Below are positions 2,738-29,006 of a DNA stretch of 31,799 nt, piece after piece. The stretch comes from a virus, in the IMG/VR virus record IMGVR_UViG_3300042561_000503, positions 1-31,799 of that record; one strand, 5' to 3'. Each line of letters opens with the position of its first letter. Within the stretch, counting starts at the first letter, position 1. The position numbers and the translations under genes are program-made. Below the pieces are notes generated by a model, which saw nothing but the letters and a program-made list of their open reading frames with translations, did no database searches and was not told where the DNA came from.

Positions 2738-5299
2738 CTAGATCGTGACTCCGTGAGTGTGCGCCGTGCCAGCGCTGGCCGGGCCAGTGGTGACGGTGCC
2801 GGTGGGCGCTTTGCCCGCCAGCGCCGCAGTGAGGCCGCTGATATCGCCGATGGTCAGCCCCAGCGCGGCCTTGATCGCCGCCACCAGCGCCGCGAAGTCG
2901 GCGTAGTTGCTGCCGGTGCCGCCGCGAGTGGTGGGGACAACGCCGGTGGTTTCGGTCGCCGACGCGAGGTCGATGGCCGCTGAAGTGATTTCCTTGCTGG
3001 CGTTCAGCTTCAGTGGCAGTGAAGCCGTGAGCGCCGACATGATGATCTTGGCCAGCGTCTCGATGTCACAGTTCGGCTTGATCGCGGTGAGCGTGGTTCC
3101 CGCATTGTTCTGGAACTGCACCAAATCGGTAGCCCCTTGGGTATCTCCGGCGCGCACGGCCAACTGAGTGAACGCCCCGGTTTCCTTGTCGTAGATCAGC
3201 ACCGTCTGCAATCCGCCCACTTCTTCAGCCTTGCGGCCCATCCAGACGCCAGACCTGCGCGCCGCCATGATCGAAACACCGGGGTCGGTGCCTCCGGTGT
3301 TGGTGGCATCGCCGAAGCTCAGGTCAAACAGTTCCGGTGACTTTCGGATGTACAGCGCGCGGAAAGACACCGCCAGCGTGTGCGTCCCGGTCCCGGCGCT
3401 CGTCAGGTTGATGGCCACGCCGCCCGCCGTCGCCGCCAGCTTCATCGATACGCCCGCCACCACGTCCCGCGCGTAGTACTTTGTGGCCGCCGCCAGGCCA
3501 GCGGGCAGCGTGCCGGTGGAAGCCACGTACAGCGCTTGTCCGTCGCTGAATGGATGCGCCACGGTCAGGATGTCCGTCGCAGCGTCAGCGGTGAAGGTGT
3601 AGATTCGGCTGGTTTGCCGCCAGTTCGGAAATGAGTCGTAGGCCGAATTGATGCTCTCGAATCCGCCCTGATCGTCGCCGCCAAAGTTCACGGTGTTGAT
3701 CCGCGAGATGTTCGGCAGCGAGTCATCCGGCCCGGTAGACTGAAGGCCGCCCAGCGCGTGAGTGAGTTCGATGGCCGGTGATTCGGTGCCGGTGTCCAGC
3801 ATCGCGTGTTCCAGCCGGGTCACCAACTGGCGGTCAAGCACCTGCGCCACGGTGCGCGAATACTGCGGGACATTCACGATCCGGTAGCCATAGGCATAGT
3901 CGGCCAGTCGGCCAGCCCTCATGCTGATGCCGCCGCCCACTTCCACCCGGCCGCCGCCACTGGCGGGGTCCCAGGCCTGCGAGATAATCGCGTGGGCGCC
4001 AGTCTCGCTCGAATAGACGTTGGCTTCCTCAATCGTGACGCCGCCACCGTTCAAGTTGATGGCCATCACCACGTTGGGAGTGCCGACGCCTTCCGTCGCT
4101 GACCGTTCGGCCTTGATGCTGTGAACGTGAACGCGGGTCGAAAACGCATTGACCACGCCCAGCGCCGCGACGTGGCAGTTGTCAGAGCTTACCCGCTCGA
4201 TAGTGTTTAGGCTGTTCTGGGACGGCTCGAACAACAACCCGAACCCGATGGCCACCTTAAATGTGCCGCTGCCGGTACTCGTGATATTGATCGCCGTCCC
4301 GCCGCTGGTGGCCGCCAGCTTGAACGTGTCGGTGGCCGCGTCCCGCACATAGTAGGGCATCCAGGCAGTAAGGCCACCGGGCATGGTGCCGCTGCTGTAG
4401 CAGAACACCATCTCGCCATCGACAAAGCCATGCGCCGCCGATGTAATTGTGTCGGTGCCGGTGTTGATGCCGCTAGGCGTTACCGTGGTGCCGTTGTAGA
4501 ACGATGAGAAGCGCCCGATGTGCGGAGGTGCGCCGAAATCATAGATGCGGCCACCGTGCCGCGGGAACCGCAGAGACCAAACGCGGTCGAGCAGGAAGTT
4601 CTCACCCAAGCGGTACAGATTGAATCCGCTGCCACGCTTGTTGGTGGCCTTGTCGCCGACTAGTGCGAGGTTCTGGATCGCCGCCGCGTGGAGGAAGTTG
4701 TCGCTGCCGCCGAAGTTCGGATCAAACGCCGAAATCAGCATATCCTCGTTGCTGTTCGGTGCCTGCCAGAGCGTTGTTGAGGGCCACTCACGATTGTTGA
4801 CCCAGGAGCCGTCGCCTACCAGTTCGGTGCCAAGCCACAGCTTCAGCCGCCCGGTCAGGTAGTCTCCTGACGGCAGCCCGATCCGGCCACCTGCACGCGT
4901 GTCCTTCATTGTGTCGATGACGCGCTGCAAGCTGGTGGTGTAGTCGAAAGCAGTGTAGCCCGCTGCGCTCGCTACGGTAGTTCCAGCAGCAGCCGCGAGC
5001 ACTGGATTGCCGCTGCTGATCGATGCGATGGTGGAAACGAGGGGAGCGCCGCCAGCACCTGCGCCTTGAATCACCATCGTCATGCCGATGTGATCGGCGC
5101 GGTAGGTGACACCCAGCACCGTTGCCGTACTGGATCCGCTGGAGATCGACACCCCGGACGCATAGGACCGGTAGTCTGGCTCAATGAATGCCTCAGTAGA
5201 GCCAACGCGCAGGAAGCTCCGCACGTCGATGGTGCGAAGCGCCAAGTCGTCGAGCAGTGCGCGGCCCCCACGTGGTGCGGTATCAGGTATATATCCCAT
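2738..5299 (-). CDS. Tailspike with beta-helix (pectate-lyase-like) fold
   Basis: 853 aa. The N-terminal about 110 residues form a virion-attachment region. Residues about 120-265 carry the start of a right-handed beta-helix (RIGLPSGDYL, LGTELVGDGSW) as in pectate-lyase-superfamily tailspikes, and helix-like rungs continue to about residue 560. Two related modules of about 85 residues, with a GTLPAGL/GTMPGGL turn, a YY motif and a FKLAAT/MKLAAT strand, lie at about 266-353 and 563-648. The last 60 residues resemble a fibre tip. Such proteins bind, and often cleave or deacetylate, surface polysaccharide. Catalytic residues cannot be named by eye. The start overlaps the hub stop (TGATG), so the two are coupled. 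Confidence 0.82.
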   Translation of the reverse strand: MGYIPDTAPRGGRALLDDLALRTIDVRSFLRVGSTEAFIEPDYRSYASGVSISSGSSTATVLGVTYRADHIGMTMVIQGAGAGGAPLVSTIASISSGNPVLAAAAGTTVASAAGYTAFDYTTSLQRVIDTMKDTRAGGRIGLPSGDYLTGRLKLWLGTELVGDGSWVNNREWPSTTLWQAPNSNEDMLISAFDPNFGGSDNFLHAAAIQNLALVGDKATNKRGSGFNLYRLGENFLLDRVWSLRFPRHGGRIYDFGAPPHIGRFSSFYNGTTVTPSGINTGTDTITSAAHGFVDGEMVFCYSSGTMPGGLTAWMPYYVRDAATDTFKLAATSGGTAINITSTGSGTFKVAIGFGLLFEPSQNSLNTIERVSSDNCHVAALGVVNAFSTRVHVHSIKAERSATEGVGTPNVVMAINLNGGGVTIEEANVYSSETGAHAIISQAWDPASGGGRVEVGGGISMRAGRLADYAYGYRIVNVPQYSRTVAQVLDRQLVTRLEHAMLDTGTESPAIELTHALGGLQSTGPDDSLPNISRINTVNFGGDDQGGFESINSAYDSFPNWRQTSRIYTFTADAATDILTVAHPFSDGQALYVASTGTLPAGLAAATKYYARDVVAGVSMKLAATAGGVAINLTSAGTGTHTLAVSFRALYIRKSPELFDLSFGDATNTGGTDPGVSIMAARRSGVWMGRKAEEVGGLQTVLIYDKETGAFTQLAVRAGDTQGATDLVQFQNNAGTTLTAIKPNCDIETLAKIIMSALTASLPLKLNASKEITSAAIDLASATETTGVVPTTRGGTGSNYADFAALVAAIKAALGLTIGDISGLTAALAGKAPTGTVTTGPASAGTAHTHGVTI
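3356..3609 (-). repeat. Tailspike internal module, copy 2
   Basis: Encodes about residues 563-648 of the tailspike. It is a diverged duplicate of the module at 4240-4500. Shared features in order are a TDILTVAHPF/TDTITSAAHGF strand, DGQALY/DGEMVF, a GTLPAGL/GTMPGGL turn, YY, then KLAATAGGVAINLTSAGTGT. Similarity is clear at protein level and partial at DNA level. Confidence 0.75.
4240..4500 (-). repeat. Tailspike internal module, copy 1
   Basis: Encodes about residues 266-353 of the tailspike, inserted between beta-helix segments. It pairs with the copy at 3356-3609. I recall the same module in unrelated phage structural proteins, so it is likely a mobile decorative domain, possibly carbohydrate-binding. 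Confidence 0.75.
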
Positions 5300-20483: not shown

Positions 20484-20751
20484 TGATGCCGCCGCATACA
20501 CGGACATGCTCAACAAGCAGCGCCGCGACCGCGACCAAGCGCTAATCGAAAAGCTGCTAGCCCGCATCAACCAGCTTGAGGCAGAGCGCCAGTGGCGACC
20601 ACTAGAAGCGCGCCAAGCGCTAACGCTCGAAGATGTCCAGCACTCGCGGTTTCGCCCGATGTTGCCCCATGAGCGGCGGCAGTGGGGATGCGATGAAGGC
20701 GTGATGAAAACGGATCGCGGCGGCTACAAGGTCACAGAGGTCATACTATGA
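20473..20751 (+). CDS. Early coiled-coil protein
   Basis: 92 aa, starting 11 nt before the end of the previous gene, with GGAGG about 6 nt upstream. Residues about 12-40 form a strong charged coiled coil (LNKQRRDRDQALIEKLLARI). The rest is soluble with a Gly-Gly-Tyr strand before the C-terminus. It overlaps the nuclease gene by 4 nt. It could be a partner of the nuclease, but no family is recognised. Confidence 0.6.
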   Translation: MQFDDAAAYTDMLNKQRRDRDQALIEKLLARINQLEAERQWRPLEARQALTLEDVQHSRFRPMLPHERRQWGCDEGVMKTDRGGYKVTEVIL

Positions 20752-20763
20752 GGCGCGCCGCGA
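20745..20763 (+). repeat. 19-bp repeat, copy A (inverted relative to copy B)
   Basis: The 19 bases are identical to the minus strand of 26054-26072. They include the start codon of the nuclease gene and the first codons MRRAA. An 8-bp GGCGCGCC palindrome lies inside. Confidence 0.8.
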
Positions 20764-21029
20764 AGATCGACGCCAACCAGCCGGATATTGTCAAGGCGCT
20801 GGTGCAGGCCGGGTGCTCCGTGCGGTCGCTGGCAGCGGTAGGGCAGGGATTCCCTGACTTGATCGTGGGCAGGCAGGGCTGGAACTACCTGCTAGAAGTT
20901 AAGGATGGCACGCTGTCACCCAGCAAGAGGGCGTTGACGGAAGATGAGGCCGAATTCCACGCTTCATGGCGCGGCAATGTGTTCATCGTGAACACCGTAG
21001 CGGAAGCGTTGGAGGCTGTAGGACTTTAG
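20748..21029 (+). CDS. VRR-NUC-type nuclease
   Basis: 93 aa. GFPDLIVG with Asp at about 37, followed by LLEVKDG with Glu 50 and Lys 52, is the PD-(D/E)XK core of VRR-NUC nucleases. The short N-terminal helix QPDIVKALVQAG and length near the family minimum agree. Stand-alone phage members are thought to act on branched or recombination intermediates. A Holliday-junction-resolvase-like role next to the replication gene fits. Its first 16 bases lie in a 19-bp repeat shared with 26054-26072. Confidence 0.88.
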   Translation: MRRAAKIDANQPDIVKALVQAGCSVRSLAAVGQGFPDLIVGRQGWNYLLEVKDGTLSPSKRALTEDEAEFHASWRGNVFIVNTVAEALEAVGL

Positions 21030-21157: not shown

Positions 21158-22114
21158 ATGGAAGAGTTGAAAAAAGAATTGTCGGCGCTCTACAGCATCA
21201 AAGACTGGGCGCTGCACTACGAGGTTAACCGGACCCGCGAGATGAAGCTGATGCAATGGCTACCGCTGCCGATCAAGCTGGACGGCGAAGGGTACGCGGC
21301 GCTCATGGATCACGAGAACGGCGCGGCTCACTTTGGCGTGTTCGTGGCTGTGCTCGAAGTGGCGGCGCGATGCCCTCAAAGGGGGGTACTCGCTGGGGCA
21401 TCCGGGCCGTACACTGAAAAATCAATCGCCCGTTTGATACGTATCCCTGAATCTACAGTGATCGAAGCGTTGCTACGCCTTGCATCTGATGATATCGGGT
21501 GGATCACTTTCACTGGTGAACGGAATCAACAGGATACGCGCAAGGGTGCGGAAAAGGTGCGGGATTCATGCGGCGAAGGTGCGGTGAAGGTGCGGGCAGA
21601 CTGCGGGATGCATGCGCTACATAATAGGACATTACATAACAAGATAGAACAAAAGACTATTGATCAATCGGCTATCGCCGATCGATCGACACATGATTCT
21701 CGCTTTCAGGCTTTCTGGGCCCTGTACCCGAAACGCGTAGGGCGCGGCAAGTGCGAGAGCTGGGCGAAGACTAACGCGAAAACAGCGGCGGCATGGGAGC
21801 CGATCATGGCCGGGTTGCAGCGGGCGCTTGATGCGGGGCTGGCAAGGAAGGGCGACTTTATCCCGTATCCGGCAACGTGGCTGAATCAGAAGCGCTGGCT
21901 TGATGAACTTGGGGCGGTGGCGGCCCTCAATGGCCGCTCCTCGCTCCCAGAGTCGCGCTGCAAGTTGTGCCACGATACCGGGGTGGTATTTCTTCCCGGA
22001 GCGACATCAGGCGCGGATTTAGACAAATGCGCGCGGGCCTGTAGTTGTGAAATGGGCCACATCGAGGCAGAACATGGCCTAAAACGCATCGATAGCGGGA
22101 CGGTGGCGGAATGA
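21158..22114 (+). CDS. Phage replication initiator (lambda O-like organisation)
   Basis: 318 aa. The N-terminal about 120 residues resemble a winged-helix DNA-binding region (YTEKSIARLIRIPESTVIEALLRLASDDIGWI). Residues 129-150 are two 11-residue repeats (KGAEKVRDSCG, EGAVKVRADCG) produced by DNA iterons. A linker follows. Residues about 183-255 contain FWALYPKRVGRGK and YPATWLNQKRWLDE, a C-terminal module common in phage replication organisers. A final Cys cluster (CKLCHDTG, CARACSC) may bind zinc. AGAGGAGAG precedes the ATG. It should bind the internal origin and recruit the host helicase; no phage helicase or polymerase is present. Confidence 0.82.
   Translation: MEELKKELSALYSIKDWALHYEVNRTREMKLMQWLPLPIKLDGEGYAALMDHENGAAHFGVFVAVLEVAARCPQRGVLAGASGPYTEKSIARLIRIPESTVIEALLRLASDDIGWITFTGERNQQDTRKGAEKVRDSCGEGAVKVRADCGMHALHNRTLHNKIEQKTIDQSAIADRSTHDSRFQAFWALYPKRVGRGKCESWAKTNAKTAAAWEPIMAGLQRALDAGLARKGDFIPYPATWLNQKRWLDELGAVAALNGRSSLPESRCKLCHDTGVVFLPGATSGADLDKCARACSCEMGHIEAEHGLKRIDSGTVAE
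21545..21617 (+). repeat. Seven iterons at exact 11-bp spacing
   Basis: Units begin at 21545, 21556, 21567, 21578, 21589, 21600 and 21611. Four read GGTGCGG, two keep TGCGG, and the last keeps TGCG. The unit is 11 bp, about one DNA turn, so bound initiator would line one face. The period is not a multiple of three, so the repeat is imposed on DNA rather than on single codons. Confidence 0.85.
21545..21682 (+). other. Probable replication origin inside the initiator gene
   Basis: The iterons are followed directly by a strongly AT-rich stretch (21621-21660, 75% A+T by hand count) suited to strand opening, then a perfect inverted repeat ATCGGC/GCCGAT at 21667-21682. Initiator binding sites plus an unwinding element inside the initiator gene is the lambda ori plan. 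Confidence 0.78.
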
Positions 22115-22317: not shown

Positions 22318-22471
22318 CGACATCGCACGGTGTTGGCTGGAGTTGGAGCGCATTGCCAACGAAACAGACCCCGGCGAGGGCTGGGGGCTATGCGTCGGCT
22401 GGTGCGATTGGCAGAGTGAACTACTGGAGATCAGGAGAGAGATGAATGCAACAAGAGAGATTGATGTTTGA
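22292..22471 (+). CDS. Small Trp/Cys-containing protein
   Basis: 59 aa from the ATG at 22292. It overlaps the previous gene by 26 nt and the next by 26 nt in other frames. It reads as an acidic helical protein with CWLELERIANETDPGEGWGL and CVGWCDWQSELLEIR. Three Cys and four Trp are notable for its size. The overlaps make it less certain than its neighbours. Confidence 0.5.
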   Translation: MEDRSADVSDIARCWLELERIANETDPGEGWGLCVGWCDWQSELLEIRREMNATREIDV

Positions 22472-23621
22472 TGATTCCGGCGATCCCGTGAGTGAGGCCG
22501 AAAAAGCGTTCTCCTCACTGGCCAACCTTGAAGAGGCGGCAAAAATTGAGGCTATAAACCGGATCAAGATTGCCCTTCGAAAGTATTCGCCGTTTGGCGC
22601 TGAGCCTGTTGATTGCGTTATCTGGGTTAAGTCTGATTTGGTTGAGGCCAACGACTACAACCCCAACAGCGTTGCGCCTCCAGAAATGAAGCTCTTGGAG
22701 CGCTCGATTGAAGCTGATGGCTACACTCAGCCAATCGTGGCTTGGCCCCGCGAAGACAAGTTTGAAGTGATCGATGGGTTTCACCGAAACCGGATCGGCA
22801 AAGAATCTGCTGTAGTCCGCAAGCGGACTCTTGGGTATCTTCCCGTCACAGTCATTCGGCAGGATCGCGAGGAGCTTGGAGACCGCATGGCGTCAACCAT
22901 TCGCCACAACCGGGCGCGCGGAAAGCACAAGGTTGAATCCATGTCCGATATTGTGATTGAGTTGAAGCGCCGCAATTGGACGGATGAACGCATCGCGCGT
23001 GATCTCGGCATGGATCAAGACGAAATTCTCCGGTTGTGCCAGATTACCGGGCTGGCTGAGATGTTTAGCGACCGCGAGTTCTCCGCATCATGGGACGTGG
23101 AAGGCAACATTACGGAGGACGATTTCAAAGGGATCACCGACGATGTGAGCGAGTATGGCGAGGATGCAAAAGAATTCCGCACCGTCAACACAAGCGACGA
23201 AGAGCGAATTTTCCACACGTACGAAAAGTGGGAATGCTTCAAGGCTGGCTTTTACGCCACCACATTGAACGGAATGACCAAGGAAGAGGCAGAGCGAAAG
23301 TATGCTGACTTTTTGGCCGACGATCAAGTGTTTGGCGCGGCCTTGGAGCGCGTCACCAGCCAATGGAAGAATTCGTGTGAGCATTACCTCACCAATAAGG
23401 CCATGAATCGTATAGCGTGGCTGGGGCAGGCGTCTGTATGCTTGGCTCTCGGAATTCCATCATCGTTTCGCGGTGGGTTCAATTTGCTGCCGCCAGACAA
23501 GCAGGAAGCAGCCAATGCGCTCGCGCTGCGGTATCTCAATCGCTGGCTTGTTGCCAATGGCCTGAAGGAAGTGACGCTGGAAGAAGCATACTCCGGCGAC
23601 CGTCAATCGGTGATCTACTAA
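22446..23621 (+). CDS. IbrB-like ParB/Srx-fold protein
   Basis: 391 aa. Residues about 55-160 are a ParB/sulfiredoxin-like domain: ANDYNPNSVAPPEMKLLERS, IEADGYTQPIV, then the nucleotide-site motif EVIDGFHRNRIG at about 107-118 and STIRHNRARGKH. A helix-turn-helix-like region follows (about 165-205). The last 180 residues are a specific extension that ends in AYSGDRQSVIY. This layout and the coupled PAPS-reductase-like gene match the IbrB/IbrA pair, known in E. coli for regulating eib genes. Its biochemical role is not settled; ParB-fold relatives bind CTP or ATP. AGGAGAG precedes the start, and the stop overlaps the next start (TAATG). Confidence 0.8.
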   Translation: MQQERLMFDDSGDPVSEAEKAFSSLANLEEAAKIEAINRIKIALRKYSPFGAEPVDCVIWVKSDLVEANDYNPNSVAPPEMKLLERSIEADGYTQPIVAWPREDKFEVIDGFHRNRIGKESAVVRKRTLGYLPVTVIRQDREELGDRMASTIRHNRARGKHKVESMSDIVIELKRRNWTDERIARDLGMDQDEILRLCQITGLAEMFSDREFSASWDVEGNITEDDFKGITDDVSEYGEDAKEFRTVNTSDEERIFHTYEKWECFKAGFYATTLNGMTKEEAERKYADFLADDQVFGAALERVTSQWKNSCEHYLTNKAMNRIAWLGQASVCLALGIPSSFRGGFNLLPPDKQEAANALALRYLNRWLVANGLKEVTLEEAYSGDRQSVIY

Positions 23622-24832
23622 TGGCGATCAAATGCTTTCGAGATGTCAACGTGCTGGAAGCTGCACGCAAGCGGATATCGATTACGTTCGACACAGTAGA
23701 GCGCGTGTTCGTGGCGTTCTCTGGCGGCAAGGATTCATCAGTCATGCTTCACCTCGTCATGGATGAGGCGATCAAGCGCAATCAGCGCGTGGCCGTCATG
23801 TACATCGATTTTGAGGCGCAATATGCGGAGACCGTTGCGCACGTCGAAGAAATGTTCGAGATGTACAAGGACCACATCGACCCGCATTGGGTTTGCGTTC
23901 CGATGCTGCTACGCAACGCAGTCACGAACTACGAGCCACGCTGGTGCTGCTGGGATGAAACAAAGCGGCATCTATGGATTCGGGAGAAGCCTAAGGTCCA
24001 CAAGAGCATTGACGATTACCCGTTTGCCCTGCCAGAAATGGAGTTTGAGGAGTTCGTGGTCTTGTTTGCCAAGTGGTACGGAAAGGGGAAGCGAACGGCT
24101 GGATTCATCGGGATACGCGCTCAAGAATCGCTTCACCGATATTGCGCGGTGGCCACTTGGGAGAAAAAAGACCTGATGCTAGACGGCCATCGGTGGACCA
24201 CGAAGATCACCGATCAGGCGTACAACATCTACCCTATTTATGATTGGCTCACCACCGACATCTGGACCTATCACGCCAAGTACCCTTGGAAGCCACACAA
24301 CGCGATCTACGACAAAATGCAGATGGCCGGGGTTCCTCTGTCTCAGCAACGCCTTTGTCAACCATTTGGAGATGACCAACGCCGGGGGCTATGGCTCTAT
24401 CACATTCTTGAGCCTCAGACGTGGTTCAAGCTGGTGGTCCGGGTGAACGGAGCAAACTCAGGCGCTCTCTACGTCGAAGAGAACGGCAATATCAGCGGGT
24501 ACAACAAGATCACGAAGCCAGCGAACCACACATGGAAGAGCTTCTGCAATCTGCTACTCCAGACGATGCCGAAAAAGACGAGAGAGCATTACGTCTACCG
24601 CTTTAAGAAGTTCATCCATGGCTGGCATGATCGCGGGTACACTTCCATCCCCGAAGAGGCCCCGCCAGAACTTGAGGCAAAGTGCTGGGCACCTTCATGG
24701 CGTCGGATGTGCAAGGTGCTTCTTCGAAACGATTACTGGTGCAAGGGACTTGGCCAGACTCAACCAAAATCAGACGCTTACGGGCGATACAAAGCCATCA
24801 TGAAGGAGAAGAAAGCAGATGGACAAAGCTAA
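23621..24832 (+). CDS. IbrA-like PAPS-reductase / PP-loop protein (DUF3440)
   Basis: 403 aa from ATG 23621. FSGGKDSSVML has the PP-loop SGGKDS at about 34-39, which activates a substrate through ATP pyrophosphate chemistry. A Cys/Trp-rich strip (YEPRWCCWDETKRHLW) and IGIRAQESLHRY follow, as in PAPS-reductase relatives. The C-terminal half (NIYPIYDWLTTDIW, PLSQQRLCQPFGDDQRRGLW) is the DUF3440 region of IbrA. Such enzymes resemble DndC of phosphorothioation systems, but DndC partners are absent. With the ParB-like protein it may modify nucleic acid, nucleotides or sulfur compounds, or regulate transcription. It is larger than classical CysH. Confidence 0.85.
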   Translation: MAIKCFRDVNVLEAARKRISITFDTVERVFVAFSGGKDSSVMLHLVMDEAIKRNQRVAVMYIDFEAQYAETVAHVEEMFEMYKDHIDPHWVCVPMLLRNAVTNYEPRWCCWDETKRHLWIREKPKVHKSIDDYPFALPEMEFEEFVVLFAKWYGKGKRTAGFIGIRAQESLHRYCAVATWEKKDLMLDGHRWTTKITDQAYNIYPIYDWLTTDIWTYHAKYPWKPHNAIYDKMQMAGVPLSQQRLCQPFGDDQRRGLWLYHILEPQTWFKLVVRVNGANSGALYVEENGNISGYNKITKPANHTWKSFCNLLLQTMPKKTREHYVYRFKKFIHGWHDRGYTSIPEEAPPELEAKCWAPSWRRMCKVLLRNDYWCKGLGQTQPKSDAYGRYKAIMKEKKADGQS

Positions 24833-24968
24833 ACAGGCGGCTGAAGATTTGATAGCGCGGGCTACGCTTCATTTGCGCCACGGGAAGATCAAGGATGCCG
24901 TCACTTGTCTGGACATGGCCCAAGCGATCCTGTACAAAATGGCGAAGGCTGACGAGGTGCCCTCATGA
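24819..24968 (+). CDS. Very small helical protein after the IbrA-like gene
   Basis: 49 aa. AGGAG lies about 9 nt upstream of the ATG, which is inside the end of the previous gene. It is almost entirely helical (KQAAEDLIARATLHLRHGKI, then DAVTCLDMAQAILYKMAK), like a pair of amphipathic helices. The stop overlaps the next start (ATGA). It may be a partner or inhibitor of a neighbour. No family is recognised. Confidence 0.6.
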   Translation: MDKAKQAAEDLIARATLHLRHGKIKDAVTCLDMAQAILYKMAKADEVPS

Positions 24969-25636
24969 CGCATCCAGACGCGATAGGCGGCAGCTACCCG
25001 GAGCGGCTGGCTGTACACCGTGCCACGGGGCAACCAAAGGCCGTGCGTGCGGCGCAGGCGTGGCACAAAGCTCACAAAAAAAAGAAGTGCCAGTGCGGAA
25101 CGTGCAAGATATGCCAGCAGCGGGCGCGGCGGATTGAGCAGAAAGCCAAGGACGAAGCGCGGATCGCCGGAGTAGTGGCGGCTGATCCAGCTACGCCAAA
25201 GGTCAAGCTATCGACCTCGCCTGAAATTGCCTTTCTTGATAGGCTGCTGGCCAGCAAGTGGAAGGGCGTGCCGTCTGCGCTGCTGCCGCCGTGCGTTGTA
25301 GCGGCTCTGCAAGCGTGGCAGGAGCCACCAGAGCCCAGCACGGCGATTACTGACGCTGTGAAGCTGTGGGAGCGCATCAACATACCAGACCCGGTTGCCG
25401 ATTGGGCTGATGATTGGCTGAAGGCCGACTATGCGCGGAGATTGGCCAACGCTGAGCGCGATATGGGCGCAAAGCGTCAGCGGCTTGCGGCGGCGATTGA
25501 GAAGTGGATGGAGGCGTGGGGAATACGTGCAAGCTGCCATCATGCAATGCAACGTATTCAGGCCGACCCCGCTTATCAGGCGAGCGAAGATGGAATACAT
25601 CTATCGATGGCATGCCAACCACTTGCACCGCAATAA
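24965..25636 (+). CDS. Early protein with a CQCGTCKIC motif
   Basis: 223 aa. After a short N-terminal region, KKKKCQCGTCKICQQRARRI (about 38-57) gives four Cys in a tight pattern that could hold zinc, inside a very basic stretch suited to nucleic-acid contact. The middle is ordinary globular sequence (LDRLLASKWKGVPSALLPP). Residues about 155-190 are helical and charged. The last 86 codons are antisense to the minus-strand gene at 25377-25724, and the final 35 residues look less protein-like, so the true end is uncertain. Function unknown. Confidence 0.65.
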   Translation: MTHPDAIGGSYPERLAVHRATGQPKAVRAAQAWHKAHKKKKCQCGTCKICQQRARRIEQKAKDEARIAGVVAADPATPKVKLSTSPEIAFLDRLLASKWKGVPSALLPPCVVAALQAWQEPPEPSTAITDAVKLWERINIPDPVADWADDWLKADYARRLANAERDMGAKRQRLAAAIEKWMEAWGIRASCHHAMQRIQADPAYQASEDGIHLSMACQPLAPQ

Positions 25637-26072: not shown

Positions 26073-26518
26073 GCTACCTTCTCAATCTGGTCCTTGGCGT
26101 TCAACGTGTCGGCGATGAGCCGCTCTAGTAGCGGTTCCATGCCAAGCTGAACCGAGATATTCTTGGCCCGCTGAAGCGCGGCATTTACCGCTTTGAACTC
26201 CGACAGGATAGCTTGTCGCGCCATGTCTTTAGAATTTCCGACGCTGAGAATCGACATGTACCCTTCAGCGGTCCGAGGGTCGCGAATATACAACGGGACG
26301 CGCGCCGTGATTGTGTCTTCGGTGACCACCACTGACAGACTCCGGATGATGGTCCGCGCCTGCTCGATCCAATGCCGATACGCGGCTTTCTTCAGGTCCC
26401 ACTCGAACAATCCGTGAAGCGGTGACGTGGGCCGCTTCGCCTCTTTCACCACAAGCTCAGGCGTTAATTCGCCTTTGCTTTCCATCTCTGCCAAACGGGA
26501 TCGCGCTTCTTGCGTCAT
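26066..26518 (-). CDS. Conserved phage protein, unknown function
   Basis: 150 aa from ATG 26516-26518, which overlaps the stop of the previous gene (ATGA); an upstream start at 26575 would run inside that gene. It carries LTPELVVKEAKRPTSPLHGL, then FEWDLKKAAYRHWIEQARTI, a pattern (SPLH, FEWD, AA-R-QAR) I recall from uncharacterised proteins of many temperate phages near recombination genes. The rest is a mixed helix/strand domain with two long helices at the end. It may work with the 263-aa neighbour. No enzymatic motif is visible. Confidence 0.75.
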   Translation of the reverse strand: MTQEARSRLAEMESKGELTPELVVKEAKRPTSPLHGLFEWDLKKAAYRHWIEQARTIIRSLSVVVTEDTITARVPLYIRDPRTAEGYMSILSVGNSKDMARQAILSEFKAVNAALQRAKNISVQLGMEPLLERLIADTLNAKDQIEKVAL

Positions 26519-27306
26519 GCGGCCCTCTTGCGAATCTGATCTTGACGCCCGGACTGCTTCACTGATGCCTGCCACCAGTCAAACAGCTCCGCCGATTCGT
26601 CATCGTAGAATCCCGGATTGGCCATCGCTGCCGCTTGTGCTTCATAGCTGCCAGTGGCCACGATGCTTTGAAACGCTTGGTCGGCCTTGTCGCAAACCAA
26701 AAAGCTGCCGTAGTTCAGCGCGCCTTTTTCTTGTCGGCCGTCGCCGATGCCCATCTTGATACCAGCATGGGCCGCAAGGTTGGCCAGTGTTTGCGGGTTC
26801 ATCTGCTGCGATTCAAACTCCACCACGAACGTTAGGCACCAGTTGGGCACAATCGCCCGCGTGCGGATGTCTGGCGTGCGGGCCATGTCACTGGACCGTA
26901 CGCCCATCATCGACAGTTGCGGAATTCCGTAAACCGGGATTCGGTCGCCCACCACCCAGATAAGCGTACCAACCTTTGCCTTGGTTACCGTTGTGTTGGC
27001 GATGCGCGTACACACATCGGTCATAGCCGCCTTCAATGCCGTTGACGGCATGGCCAGCAGCGTCGCCGGTTTCTGATCGCGGGCCGTCATCCGATACACC
27101 GAATCTTCAAATTCGGCCATTGGGTCATGCTTGACTGTCGATTCGCGCTCCGCTTTCGTCTTCTTGCGAGGATATAGCAATTCCCGCTTAGCTTTAGCCG
27201 ACATCGCGTTGAACAGCAATGGAGTCCTGCCAATGATAGACAGTTCGACACTGCCCGTCTTGATCTCTTCGATTTCAATAACCACGTTTGACTCTAGTTT
27301 CTTCAT
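26515..27306 (-). CDS. Unknown phage protein of the recombination region
   Basis: 263 aa from ATG 27304-27306, with GAGGAAGAGG directly upstream; a longer start at 27339 adds only basic residues. It opens with a strand and GRTPLLFNAMSAKAKRELL, a G-x-x-P-L-L-x-N/H start seen in many uncharacterised phage proteins. It continues with a conserved-looking LLAMPSTALKAAMTDVC and ends in a glycine-poor helical tail. The strand-rich character and small G-loop (GIGDGRQEKGALNYG) recall RAMP-like RNA-binding folds, but this is only an impression. It lies next to ssb and erf and may join DNA recombination or annealing. Confidence 0.7.
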   Translation of the reverse strand: MKKLESNVVIEIEEIKTGSVELSIIGRTPLLFNAMSAKAKRELLYPRKKTKAERESTVKHDPMAEFEDSVYRMTARDQKPATLLAMPSTALKAAMTDVCTRIANTTVTKAKVGTLIWVVGDRIPVYGIPQLSMMGVRSSDMARTPDIRTRAIVPNWCLTFVVEFESQQMNPQTLANLAAHAGIKMGIGDGRQEKGALNYGSFLVCDKADQAFQSIVATGSYEAQAAAMANPGFYDDESAELFDWWQASVKQSGRQDQIRKRAA

Positions 27307-27661
27307 CCTCTTCCTCTTTCTTGAACCGCCACAACTCACCGCGCCGGTCCCTGCCTATCCCGATATTGCCTCGACTGCCTCGATCCGCCTTTTCACGCCG
27401 AACCGTTCCACTCCTCAACCGCCCGGCCTCGCCAGAACTTACCGCGCCACGCCATGCCACACCGTGACCGCCTGTGCTCACCTCGCGGTGCCCTTCCACT
27501 TCCGGCCACACCTAGACCGCCACTCCATGCCTTTCACTGCCAATCCAGTCCGCAGTGCGCCGCACCTTGACCGCCGTGTCATTCTTTGCGCTCCGTCCGC
27601 CGGGGCCACCCGGAGCGCGCTTAGTGGATCATCGGGCACTTCAAACCCGCCCCGGCAAAGC
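27307..27661 (-). other. Repeat-rich, strand-biased non-coding gap
   Basis: No credible gene is found. The minus strand is very G-rich and the plus strand C-rich. A run of GG every 5 nt occurs on the minus strand opposite 27441-27463, and three 15-bp direct repeats lie at 27458-27575. Candidates are a second origin, a recombination or packaging-related site, or a structured RNA. Confidence 0.55.
27458..27575 (+). repeat. Three 15-bp direct repeats, CRCACCKNGACCGCC
   Basis: Copies on the plus strand are CACACCGTGACCGCC (27458-27472), CACACCTAGACCGCC (27507-27521) and CGCACCTTGACCGCC (27561-27575), spaced 49 and 54 bp. Ten of the fifteen positions plus one purine position agree in all three. 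Confidence 0.7.
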
Positions 27662-28075
27662 CTAAAACGGTACGTCGTCGTCAGTGATCCCGGTTTGGTC
27701 CCACTCATTGGCCGGAGCCGCCGTTGTTAGACGTGCCGCTGGTGGCCCGCTAGCCTTCGCAGTCGGCCCGGTGGCAAGAACGCTGGCGATCAGGTCCACC
27801 GATTCGCGCTCGATCCCCTTCGACTCGTACTTCCGCCGCGCCAGCCGCCCGATGGCCACCACGGTTTGACCCTTGACAATGGCGGCCGCGTAGTTTGCGA
27901 AGTGCTCATCGTGCGGCCAGTACGTCACGTTATGCCACGTCGTCTCTTCTTTGTCGCCATGCTTGTATGAGGTAGCCACAGACACGCTCACCACGGGCTT
28001 CCCCGCTTGCGTGTAGCGAAGCTCCGCATCTCGGCCCGCGTGGCCTACGACAATGTAGCTGTTTAAGTTTGGCAT
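27662..28075 (-). CDS. ssb: Single-stranded DNA-binding protein
   Basis: 137 aa. The OB-fold shows NSYIVVGHAGRDAELRYTQA, then VVSVSVATSYKHGD, TTWHNVTYWP and KGQTVVAIGRLARRKYESKG. A flexible Pro/Ala-rich tail ends in the acidic tip DDDVPF used to recruit partner proteins. It coats single strands during replication and ERF-driven recombination. AAGAGAG lies upstream of the ATG. It starts 17 nt after the erf gene ends, so both come from the same transcript. Length is short of E. coli SSB but normal for phages. Confidence 0.95.
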   Translation of the reverse strand: MPNLNSYIVVGHAGRDAELRYTQAGKPVVSVSVATSYKHGDKEETTWHNVTYWPHDEHFANYAAAIVKGQTVVAIGRLARRKYESKGIERESVDLIASVLATGPTAKASGPPAARLTTAAPANEWDQTGITDDDVPF

Positions 28076-28092: not shown

Positions 28093-28788
28093 TCAAAACG
28101 CTGGCGTATTCGGCCCCATCTGATCGGCCTTTGCCTTCAGTGCCCGCCAGCAATCGCGGGCTTGCGCGTAGTCCTTGAACTCGTTGGCGTGTTCGACGCC
28201 TTGCGAACCCAGCACCTTATAGTATTCGGCTGGTCCAATGACGGCCTTGAACGCTTGCAGCGTCTTGACGATCTTCGAGAATTCCGATTCTACCTTGGCC
28301 TTGCCCACCGCTTGCGCGTTAGCCGCCGCTTCCTGCCGTGTCGGTGCTGGCTCAGGCGTGGCCGCGTCTGCGTCGTTGTCTCCCTCAGTGGGGATGCAGA
28401 ACGTCTGAAGCGCCATGTACTTGTAGGCCGCTGACATCGCTTTGTTGGTGGCCTTGTCGGCGCTGTCCATCGCTTCGCCGTAGCATCGGGCAGAGTGCAT
28501 GGAGCCGTCAACCGCTGACACCAGATCGAACCGTACCGCCACGGTCACATAGAACAATGCGCCGCCGCTTTTTGTCTCACGTTCCACCACCGCCCGTTCC
28601 TCGACAAACGGCACAATGGCCAGCTTCTCTTTGGCCAGCACGCTCGATAGCGCCGCGTACACGTCATCAATGCCACGGAAGGCGTAACCCTGCTGCTGAT
28701 TTTTCCGGCCCTTGGCAATGCCGACATGGGCCATTTCCGCAGTGACCGCGCAGATCGCCGCGTATACCGCTGCTGGTTTCTCGCTCAT
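28093..28788 (-). CDS. erf: ERF-family single-strand annealing protein
   Basis: 231 aa from ATG 28786-28788, preceded by GGAGG and overlapping the upstream stop (ATGA). The ERF domain has GIAKGRKNQQQGYAFRGIDD, then YAALSSVLAKEKLAIVP, and the diagnostic SAAYKYMALQTFCIPTEGD (about 130-148). The linker is Pro/Ala-rich and the C-terminal domain is helical (YYKVLGSQGVEHANEF). ERF proteins bind single-stranded DNA and anneal complementary strands, as in P22 Erf, aiding circularisation. Its SSB partner is directly downstream. The long start at 28857 is rejected because it lies in the upstream gene. Confidence 0.95.
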   Translation of the reverse strand: MSEKPAAVYAAICAVTAEMAHVGIAKGRKNQQQGYAFRGIDDVYAALSSVLAKEKLAIVPFVEERAVVERETKSGGALFYVTVAVRFDLVSAVDGSMHSARCYGEAMDSADKATNKAMSAAYKYMALQTFCIPTEGDNDADAATPEPAPTRQEAAANAQAVGKAKVESEFSKIVKTLQAFKAVIGPAEYYKVLGSQGVEHANEFKDYAQARDCWRALKAKADQMGPNTPAF

Positions 28789-29006
28789 TGCGCCTCCATC
28801 TTCGCGGCCAGGGCTTCCAGCGCGGCCCAAATGGTAGGCCCCTTGCCCCGGTAGCATTCATCGCCAGTTTTGGTCCATCGCGCTACCTGCGCAACCTTGT
28901 CATTAGCAATCGGTTGCTTGACCACCAAATTCCACTGGTACTCTTCCTCGGGCAGTTCGCTTTCCGACAGCCGCCGGATAAACTTCCCCATCGCTTCATT
29001 GTCCAT
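28785..29006 (-). CDS. Small hypothetical protein before erf
   Basis: 73 aa from ATG 29004-29006, with AAGGAG about 8 nt upstream. It starts MDNEAMGKFIRRLSESELPE and reads as a small folded domain with YQWNLVVKQPIAN, GDECYRGKGPTIWAALEALA. This ending resembles small phage proteins that have an amphipathic GPTIxxALxxL helix. It is linked by ATGA to erf. No function is known to me. Confidence 0.65.
   Translation of the reverse strand: MDNEAMGKFIRRLSESELPEEEYQWNLVVKQPIANDKVAQVARWTKTGDECYRGKGPTIWAALEALAAKMEAQ

Follow-up and report, generated by a model that had tools for sequence, protein, structure and literature searches.

A phage IbrB-IbrA gene pair with a fused third component as a candidate nucleic acid modification module

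The closest described relatives of the system considered here are the IbrA/IbrB and YbdN/YbdM proteins of Escherichia coli, which combine a PP-loop protein of the DUF3440 type with a ParB-like IbrB protein encoded by an adjacent, overlapping gene, and which are found in phages, in genomic islands and on the K-12 chromosome. ParB-fold ATPases, namely DpdB and DndB, also serve DNA modification systems (PMC12839542), and the free-serine kinases SerK and SbnI have folds of the ParB/Srx kind (PMC5120207). ParB folds may bind ATP, CTP or GTP, the nucleotide not being predictable from sequence according to a 2025 survey, and a ParB-acetyltransferase fusion that binds GTP has been reported (PMC12704722). 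Additionally, coupling of SWI2/SNF2 ATPases to DNA methylases is widespread among mobile elements (PMC5512222). Here we describe an IbrB-IbrA pair in the IMG/VR virus record IMGVR_UViG_3300042561_000503, a stretch of 31,799 bases referred to below as the window, to which all coordinates refer (plus strand unless marked otherwise). Our tentatively preferred reading is that this pair forms a two-protein, three-domain module for modifying nucleic acid, with DNA as the likeliest target.

The upstream gene of the pair (22446-23621) encodes IbrB, a predicted ParB/KorB-like nucleotide-binding protein of 391 amino acids (aa) with a helix-turn-helix and a fused C-terminal domain, and the downstream gene (23621-24832) encodes IbrA (403 aa), a predicted PP-loop ATP pyrophosphatase with a PAPS-reductase/FAD-synthase fold and a DUF3440 region. 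A Shine-Dalgarno-like stretch (AGGAGAG) lies 6 nt ahead of the IbrB ATG, and the start codon of IbrA lies inside the stop codon of IbrB (TAATG, at 23621), which couples the two genes translationally. Both score as coding by codon usage. In comparison with the nearest IbrA relative, which is encoded on a 40-kb contig (L002 in our survey of loci) and shares 92% protein identity, the ratio of nonsynonymous to synonymous substitution rates (dN/dS) of IbrA is 0.03, with synonymous sites near saturation in IbrA and saturated in IbrB. Both are real genes under strong purifying selection. In line with these results, the 392 loci found with IbrB were reduced to 203 by dereplication at 85% identity, and IbrA stands alongside IbrB in 198 of them, some of the remaining loci being cut by contig ends; this co-occurrence is far above chance. 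The coupled, conserved pair described in the first-pass annotation of the window is therefore real. Furthermore, L002 lacks the capsid and portal genes of the window and has different replication neighbours, although its record may be incomplete, and for this reason the pair appears to move as a cassette between unrelated phages.

IbrB is predicted to belong to the ParB/Srx superfamily, with a ParB/KorB-like nucleotide-binding fold followed by a helix-turn-helix. Its residues 34-241 match the ParB-like family phrog_2159 (E 7.5e-72). In the structural model, whose mean predicted local distance difference test (pLDDT) score is 86, the ParB/Srx fold for nucleoside triphosphate binding occupies residues 56-160 (22611-22925; pLDDT about 70-98), and the best solved matches are KorB, ParB and Noc, which align over both the nucleotide-binding domain and the helix-turn-helix (for KorB, 8qa9, Z 14.8 with 148 aligned residues and a root-mean-square deviation of 4.9). 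Matches to sulfiredoxin, SbnI and SerK are weaker (Z 7-9.5), and those to SerK and SbnI (Z 7-8) extend across 71-84 residues only. The fold carries an invariant GxxR motif of the DGFHR type at residues 110-114 (22773-22787), in which D110, G111, H113 and R114 are present in 184 of 184 ungapped sequences and which takes the form DG(F/Y)HR; N155-R156-A157-R158-G159-x-H161 is a further invariant motif. The KorB-like helix-turn-helix (residues 163-212, 22932-23081) includes a conserved GMxxxExLRLxQ recognition-helix region and is among the best-conserved parts of a protein whose identity across phyla is 40-60%, a conservation more readily expected of a constant catalytic complex than of a factor specific to one promoter. 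Sulfiredoxin holds its catalytic Cys within a GCHR motif; a sulfiredoxin function for IbrB was considered and rejected, since this Cys is absent and 182 of the 184 ungapped sequences have Phe or Tyr at position 112. IbrB also differs from a chromosome or plasmid ParB: it scores 18.0 bits against Pfam ParB_N, under the cut-off of 26.3, its neighbour is IbrA, and the annotated loci inspected showed no parA-like gene.

IbrA exceeds the Pfam cut-offs of both DUF3440 (E 4.7e-36; 124.7 bits against 25; residues 237-351, 24329-24673) and PAPS_reduct (E 1.4e-13; 51.7 bits against 22.5), and matches phrog_2302 (E 6.3e-82). Its model (mean pLDDT 85) resembles FAD synthase, APS/PAPS reductase and the ATP sulfurylase subunit CysD at Z 14-16, which points to a member of the PP-loop ATP pyrophosphatase superfamily with an SGGxDS loop and a HUP fold. 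The loop itself, SGGKDS, is formed by residues 34-39 (23720-23737); over 197 dereplicated sequences, S34, G36, K37 and S39 are present in all, D38 in 196 and G35 in 190, and a GIRxxES motif is kept nearly throughout. PP-loop enzymes of this kind cut ATP between the alpha and beta phosphates and adenylate their substrate, and IbrA itself may do the same. Thus, both family assignments of the first-pass annotation hold, that of IbrB through the likeness to KorB and the retained GxxR motif, and that of IbrA, which it had called PAPS-reductase-like and of the DUF3440 type, through both Pfam models.

What the same annotation recorded as a long extra C-terminal domain of IbrB proved to be its most informative part. 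This domain (residues 242-391, 23169-23618) is all-helical in the model, and the last 150 residues of IbrB gave no match by sequence in Pfam, PHROGs or the PDB. The domain is encoded by a separate gene adjoining IbrB and IbrA in four phages: Microcystis phage Mwe-JY13 and Pseudomonas phage Amjad_SA have it between the two, and Mycobacterium phage Gaia and Pseudoalteromonas phage XCL1123 have it after IbrB. A scan with the domain itself gave 80 loci, all 67 new ones carrying both IbrA and IbrB; another locus with the domain (L022), cut at a contig edge, has IbrA only, and the domain was never found without IbrA and/or IbrB. Because it is a separate gene elsewhere and was found solely with IbrA and/or IbrB, it is probably a dedicated third component, which the clade of the window carries as a fusion to IbrB.

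The pair also has other partners. Genes within 100 bp of the pair or fused to it were counted in the 203 dereplicated loci, which were gathered through their matches to IbrB, to IbrA or to the C-terminal domain, and the proportions describe this sample rather than nature; moreover, one missing or extra neighbour in a short contig can alter a partner label. The C-terminal domain accompanies the pair in 98 loci, an SNF2 helicase-like ATPase in 43, a GNAT acetyltransferase in 25 and an ectoine-synthase-like cupin, which can be fused to IbrB, in 10. The cupin matches its Pfam model at E 1e-32, and three GNAT members match Pfam Acetyltransf_1 (E 2e-9 to 7e-8), the others being divergent and without an acetyl-CoA loop. 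Homology between the GNAT partner and the C-terminal domain was considered and rejected, hhalign giving it a probability of 0.2%. A single-sequence scan of viral contigs for the GNAT partner gave no match, whereas a GNAT profile does find it in the fetched viral loci. On a tree of 92 IbrA sequences, the SNF2 label changes 13 times and that of the C-terminal domain 6 times, and partner labels are far more clustered than shuffled ones. The pair has repeatedly acquired the same partners, namely an SNF2 translocase, a GNAT protein, a cupin or the C-terminal domain, and a multi-enzyme pathway is supported mainly by this recurrent combination of one core with a few kinds of partner.

Several loci show further features of this neighbourhood. 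The Bacteroidota GNAT members L139:7588-7998, L188:6173-6598 and L193:6212-6613 seem to have lost the acetyl-CoA-binding loop, a hint that their role is structural and not catalytic. In 22 of the 203 dereplicated loci, from both bacteria and phages and of the SNF2-IbrA-GNAT-IbrB type, the SNF2 gene is immediately preceded by a member of a family of about 397 aa with no Pfam match (phrog_16123; family c7, L178:3513-4706 and relatives). In Fusobacterium phage phiFN37 (L042:9754-11039), a second ParB-like gene overlaps one annotated as queuine tRNA-ribosyltransferase about 1.4 kb beyond the IbrA-IbrB-SNF2 genes, a second pair that looks to be of the Dpd type (DNA 7-deazaguanine). Additionally, a phage contig (L020) whose IbrA is 85% identical to that of the window carries, a few kb upstream of the pair, a second PP-loop-like open reading frame (ORF; FSGGIDS) and a C5-methyltransferase-like ORF (92-1033 and 2753-3487 of that contig).

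The pair is found in phages that infect many different hosts, in bacterial genomes of many phyla and in Heimdall- and Lokiarchaeota, and an Asgard virus with IbrA/IbrB has been published (PMC8813620). Among 5426 complete E. coli genomes, 5373 match the pair with a copy of either the ybdN/ybdM or the IbrAB type, many being ybdN/ybdM between citR and ybdL; in 2037 genomes, the match covers at least 80% of the query and is annotated as a PAPS reductase and an IbrB-like protein. One tRNA-Sec integrase island, in E. coli UPEC_U013 (L394:1-11196), holds an IbrA copy and a frameshifted IbrB together with a NotI-type restriction enzyme, a cytosine methyltransferase, an ATP-dependent nuclease and perC.

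In the mechanism that we favour, IbrA would spend ATP, releasing AMP and pyrophosphate, to adenylate the target or a small donor group, while IbrB would hold DNA through its helix-turn-helix and a nucleotide through its ParB fold, thereby bringing or gating IbrA. The C-terminal domain would act as a dedicated third subunit, whose place would be taken or shared in other clades by the GNAT protein, the cupin or the SNF2 translocase, and these swappable partners would tailor the product or drive the whole complex along the DNA. DNA is the most likely target because the helix-turn-helix is of a DNA-binding type, SNF2 proteins act on double-stranded DNA and ParB-fold ATPases serve the Dpd and Dnd systems (PMC12839542). 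For the phage, the likely gain would be to shield its DNA against the defences of the host or to alter the expression of its genes. Nucleic acid modification, which the first-pass annotation had proposed, remains a sensible reading that gains from the SNF2, GNAT and cupin partners and from the ParB-plus-helix-turn-helix model of IbrB; the DndC-type sulfur chemistry offered with it is not supported (see below). A broader version, in which IbrA-IbrB is the invariant core of an undescribed class of DNA hypermodification machines across phages, bacteria and Asgard archaea, built on an ATP-driven PP-loop enzyme that attaches a group to DNA and on interchangeable tailoring subunits, is doubtful. Several observations weigh against DNA modification: some loci hold the pair with no detected partner, the roles of the GNAT and cupin partners are guessed from fold only, no modified nucleoside or enzyme activity was reported in the literature searched, and E. 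coli has near-universal YbdN/YbdM but no known matching DNA modification.

The last point against it, that activation of prophage eib genes, by ibrB in E. coli ECOR-9 (Sandt 2002, here as cited in PMC7649339), is the one phenotype published for the pair, leads to the main rival, which we consider unlikely. IbrB would be a nucleotide-switched DNA clamp of the ParB/VirB/KorB kind that turns on phage or host genes, with IbrA as a modulator. The best structural match of IbrB, KorB, is a plasmid repressor, in agreement with such a role for its ParB fold and helix-turn-helix, and deletion of CitR raises ybdNM along with other E. coli genes (PMC9068703). However, a plain regulator would need no ATP-pyrophosphatase site, which is intact in essentially all IbrA proteins of the conserved pair, and promoter targets would be expected to differ across the phyla over which the helix-turn-helix is kept. 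Transcriptional co-activation also leaves the GNAT, cupin and SNF2 partners unexplained, and the eib effect is compatible with an indirect influence of DNA modification on expression.

Third in our ranking, and slightly less plausible still, is small-molecule or nucleotide chemistry, whereby the pair would produce or break down a compound resembling a nucleotide, for instance against nucleotide-signal defences. The enzymes closest in fold to IbrA act on small molecules, the ParB/Srx folds extend to the free-serine kinases mentioned above, and in the Gaia clade the ectoine-synthase-like cupin is fused to IbrB; the helix-turn-helix of IbrB and the recurrent SNF2 translocase nevertheless indicate DNA.

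Sulfur chemistry, either phosphorothioation or thiolation as by DndC and tRNA thiolases, or sulfate assimilation as by PAPS reductase, is improbable. It draws on the PAPS_reduct match and weak DndC matches of IbrA, on C246 and C374, both present in the clade of the window and kept in 63 of 65 loci of the C-terminal-domain type, and on the appearance of ybdNM in the same table as raised cys genes upon deletion of citR in E. coli (PMC9068703). No Cys is invariant in the 197 IbrA sequences (the best, C374 and C246, reach 86% and 60%), and C246 is replaced by Ala in 24 of 24 cupin-type and in most SNF2-type proteins, so that a conserved iron-sulfur or persulfide site was rejected at the family level. 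DndC, in contrast, needs a 4Fe-4S cluster bound by three cysteines plus a cysteine dyad (PMC10853773). The NCBIfam models for DndC (TIGR03183; 28.5 bits, cut-off 290.4) and PAPS_reductase (25.4 bits, cut-off 254.2) score far below their cut-offs, and no desulfurase was noticed next to the pair. PAPS reductase (CysH) has a catalytic cysteine motif, ECGxH, at its C terminus, and this motif is absent from the window sequence. The lack of an invariant Cys argues against both PAPS reduction and DndC-type sulfur insertion, the latter being unlikely as a common function of IbrA.

The suggestion that four genes (22446 to 25636) form one system, based on overlapping start and stop codons and on a short two-helix ORF that also follows IbrA in L020 and L003 (the L020 ORF weakly resembling the 49-aa ORF, with 33 of 2000 shuffles as good, uncorrected), is very improbable, given that no relatives of the 49-aa and 223-aa proteins were found in viral contigs and none of the latter in phage records, that the genes after IbrA in related phages, named by reading their sequences, are instead terminase, exonuclease, clamp loader, primase or small ORFs, and that the codon score of the 223-aa ORF is weak. 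The 49-aa ORF (24819-24968), which overlaps the end of IbrA by 14 nt, is at most a local satellite and probably not a general component, and the 223-aa ORF (24965-25636), which overlaps the former through ATGA, appears to lie outside the system; both ORFs share the operon of the pair.

The remainder of the window is that of a tailed phage, with terminase, portal, major capsid and tape measure genes on the minus strand, and a series of overlapping plus-strand genes in which a replication-initiator/primosomal-like gene (21158-22114) stands directly upstream of the pair, the 49-aa ORF and the 223-aa ORF. With SSB (27662-28075) and Erf recombination (28093-28857) genes nearby, the label of an early operon given in the first-pass annotation is reasonable. 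A conserved phage protein of phrog_4652 (26515-27339, minus strand) adjoins the SSB and Erf genes. Further upstream (20748-21029) lies a small nuclease-like protein that matches phrog_93 endonuclease and, weakly, Holliday-junction resolvases, and of which L002 carries a 53% identical copy on the opposite strand. No promoter or terminator signals above chance were found, and the window contains no RNA families or tRNAs.

The pair is already known by name and annotated in many phages; the literature searched, which left out most subscription papers and preprints, described no function beyond eib activation and no partner network, and three features appear undescribed: the third component, the network of partners and the cysteine losses seen from clade to clade. 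About 99% of complete E. coli genomes and hundreds of phages carry the pair. The partner network turns vague labels (PAPS reductase, ParB, co-activator) into testable chemistry and names a dedicated third component, and cultured phages are among the carriers of the module (Mwe-JY13, Amjad_SA, Gaia and CHPC1148). If DNA modification is true, enzymes that make hypermodified bases would gain a new class, which would also be a tool of counter-defence; otherwise, a core operon of E. coli would still find its explanation.

Among DNA modification systems, Dnd phosphorothioation resembles this locus in that a ParB-superfamily protein (DndB) adjoins a PP-loop PAPS-reductase-like protein (DndC), but IbrA lacks the conserved cysteine set and scores far under the DndC cut-off, and DndA, DndD and DndE were not noticed beside it. 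Likewise, the Dpd system for 7-deazaguanine in DNA pairs a ParB-fold ATPase (DpdB) with a base-modifying enzyme (PMC12839542), although DpdA is a tRNA-guanine transglycosylase (TGT), whereas IbrA is a PP-loop protein. The E. coli type shares both families with the window and differs in its order (IbrA before IbrB) and in having no C-terminal domain, its IbrA being about 41% identical to that of the window (phage PhiR5_2). Mycobacterium phage Gaia gp103-106, which include a PAPS reductase-like protein, an ectoine synthase/ParB fusion and gp106, bring IbrA, IbrB and the C-terminal-domain family together as in the window, but with IbrA first, the cupin fused to IbrB, the C-terminal domain as a free protein and, in this cupin type, Ala at position 246 of IbrA. 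Phages Mwe-JY13 and Amjad_SA have the order IbrB, C-terminal domain, IbrA inside a cluster of replication and recombination genes, the domain being a gene of its own in these phages and fused to IbrB in the window.

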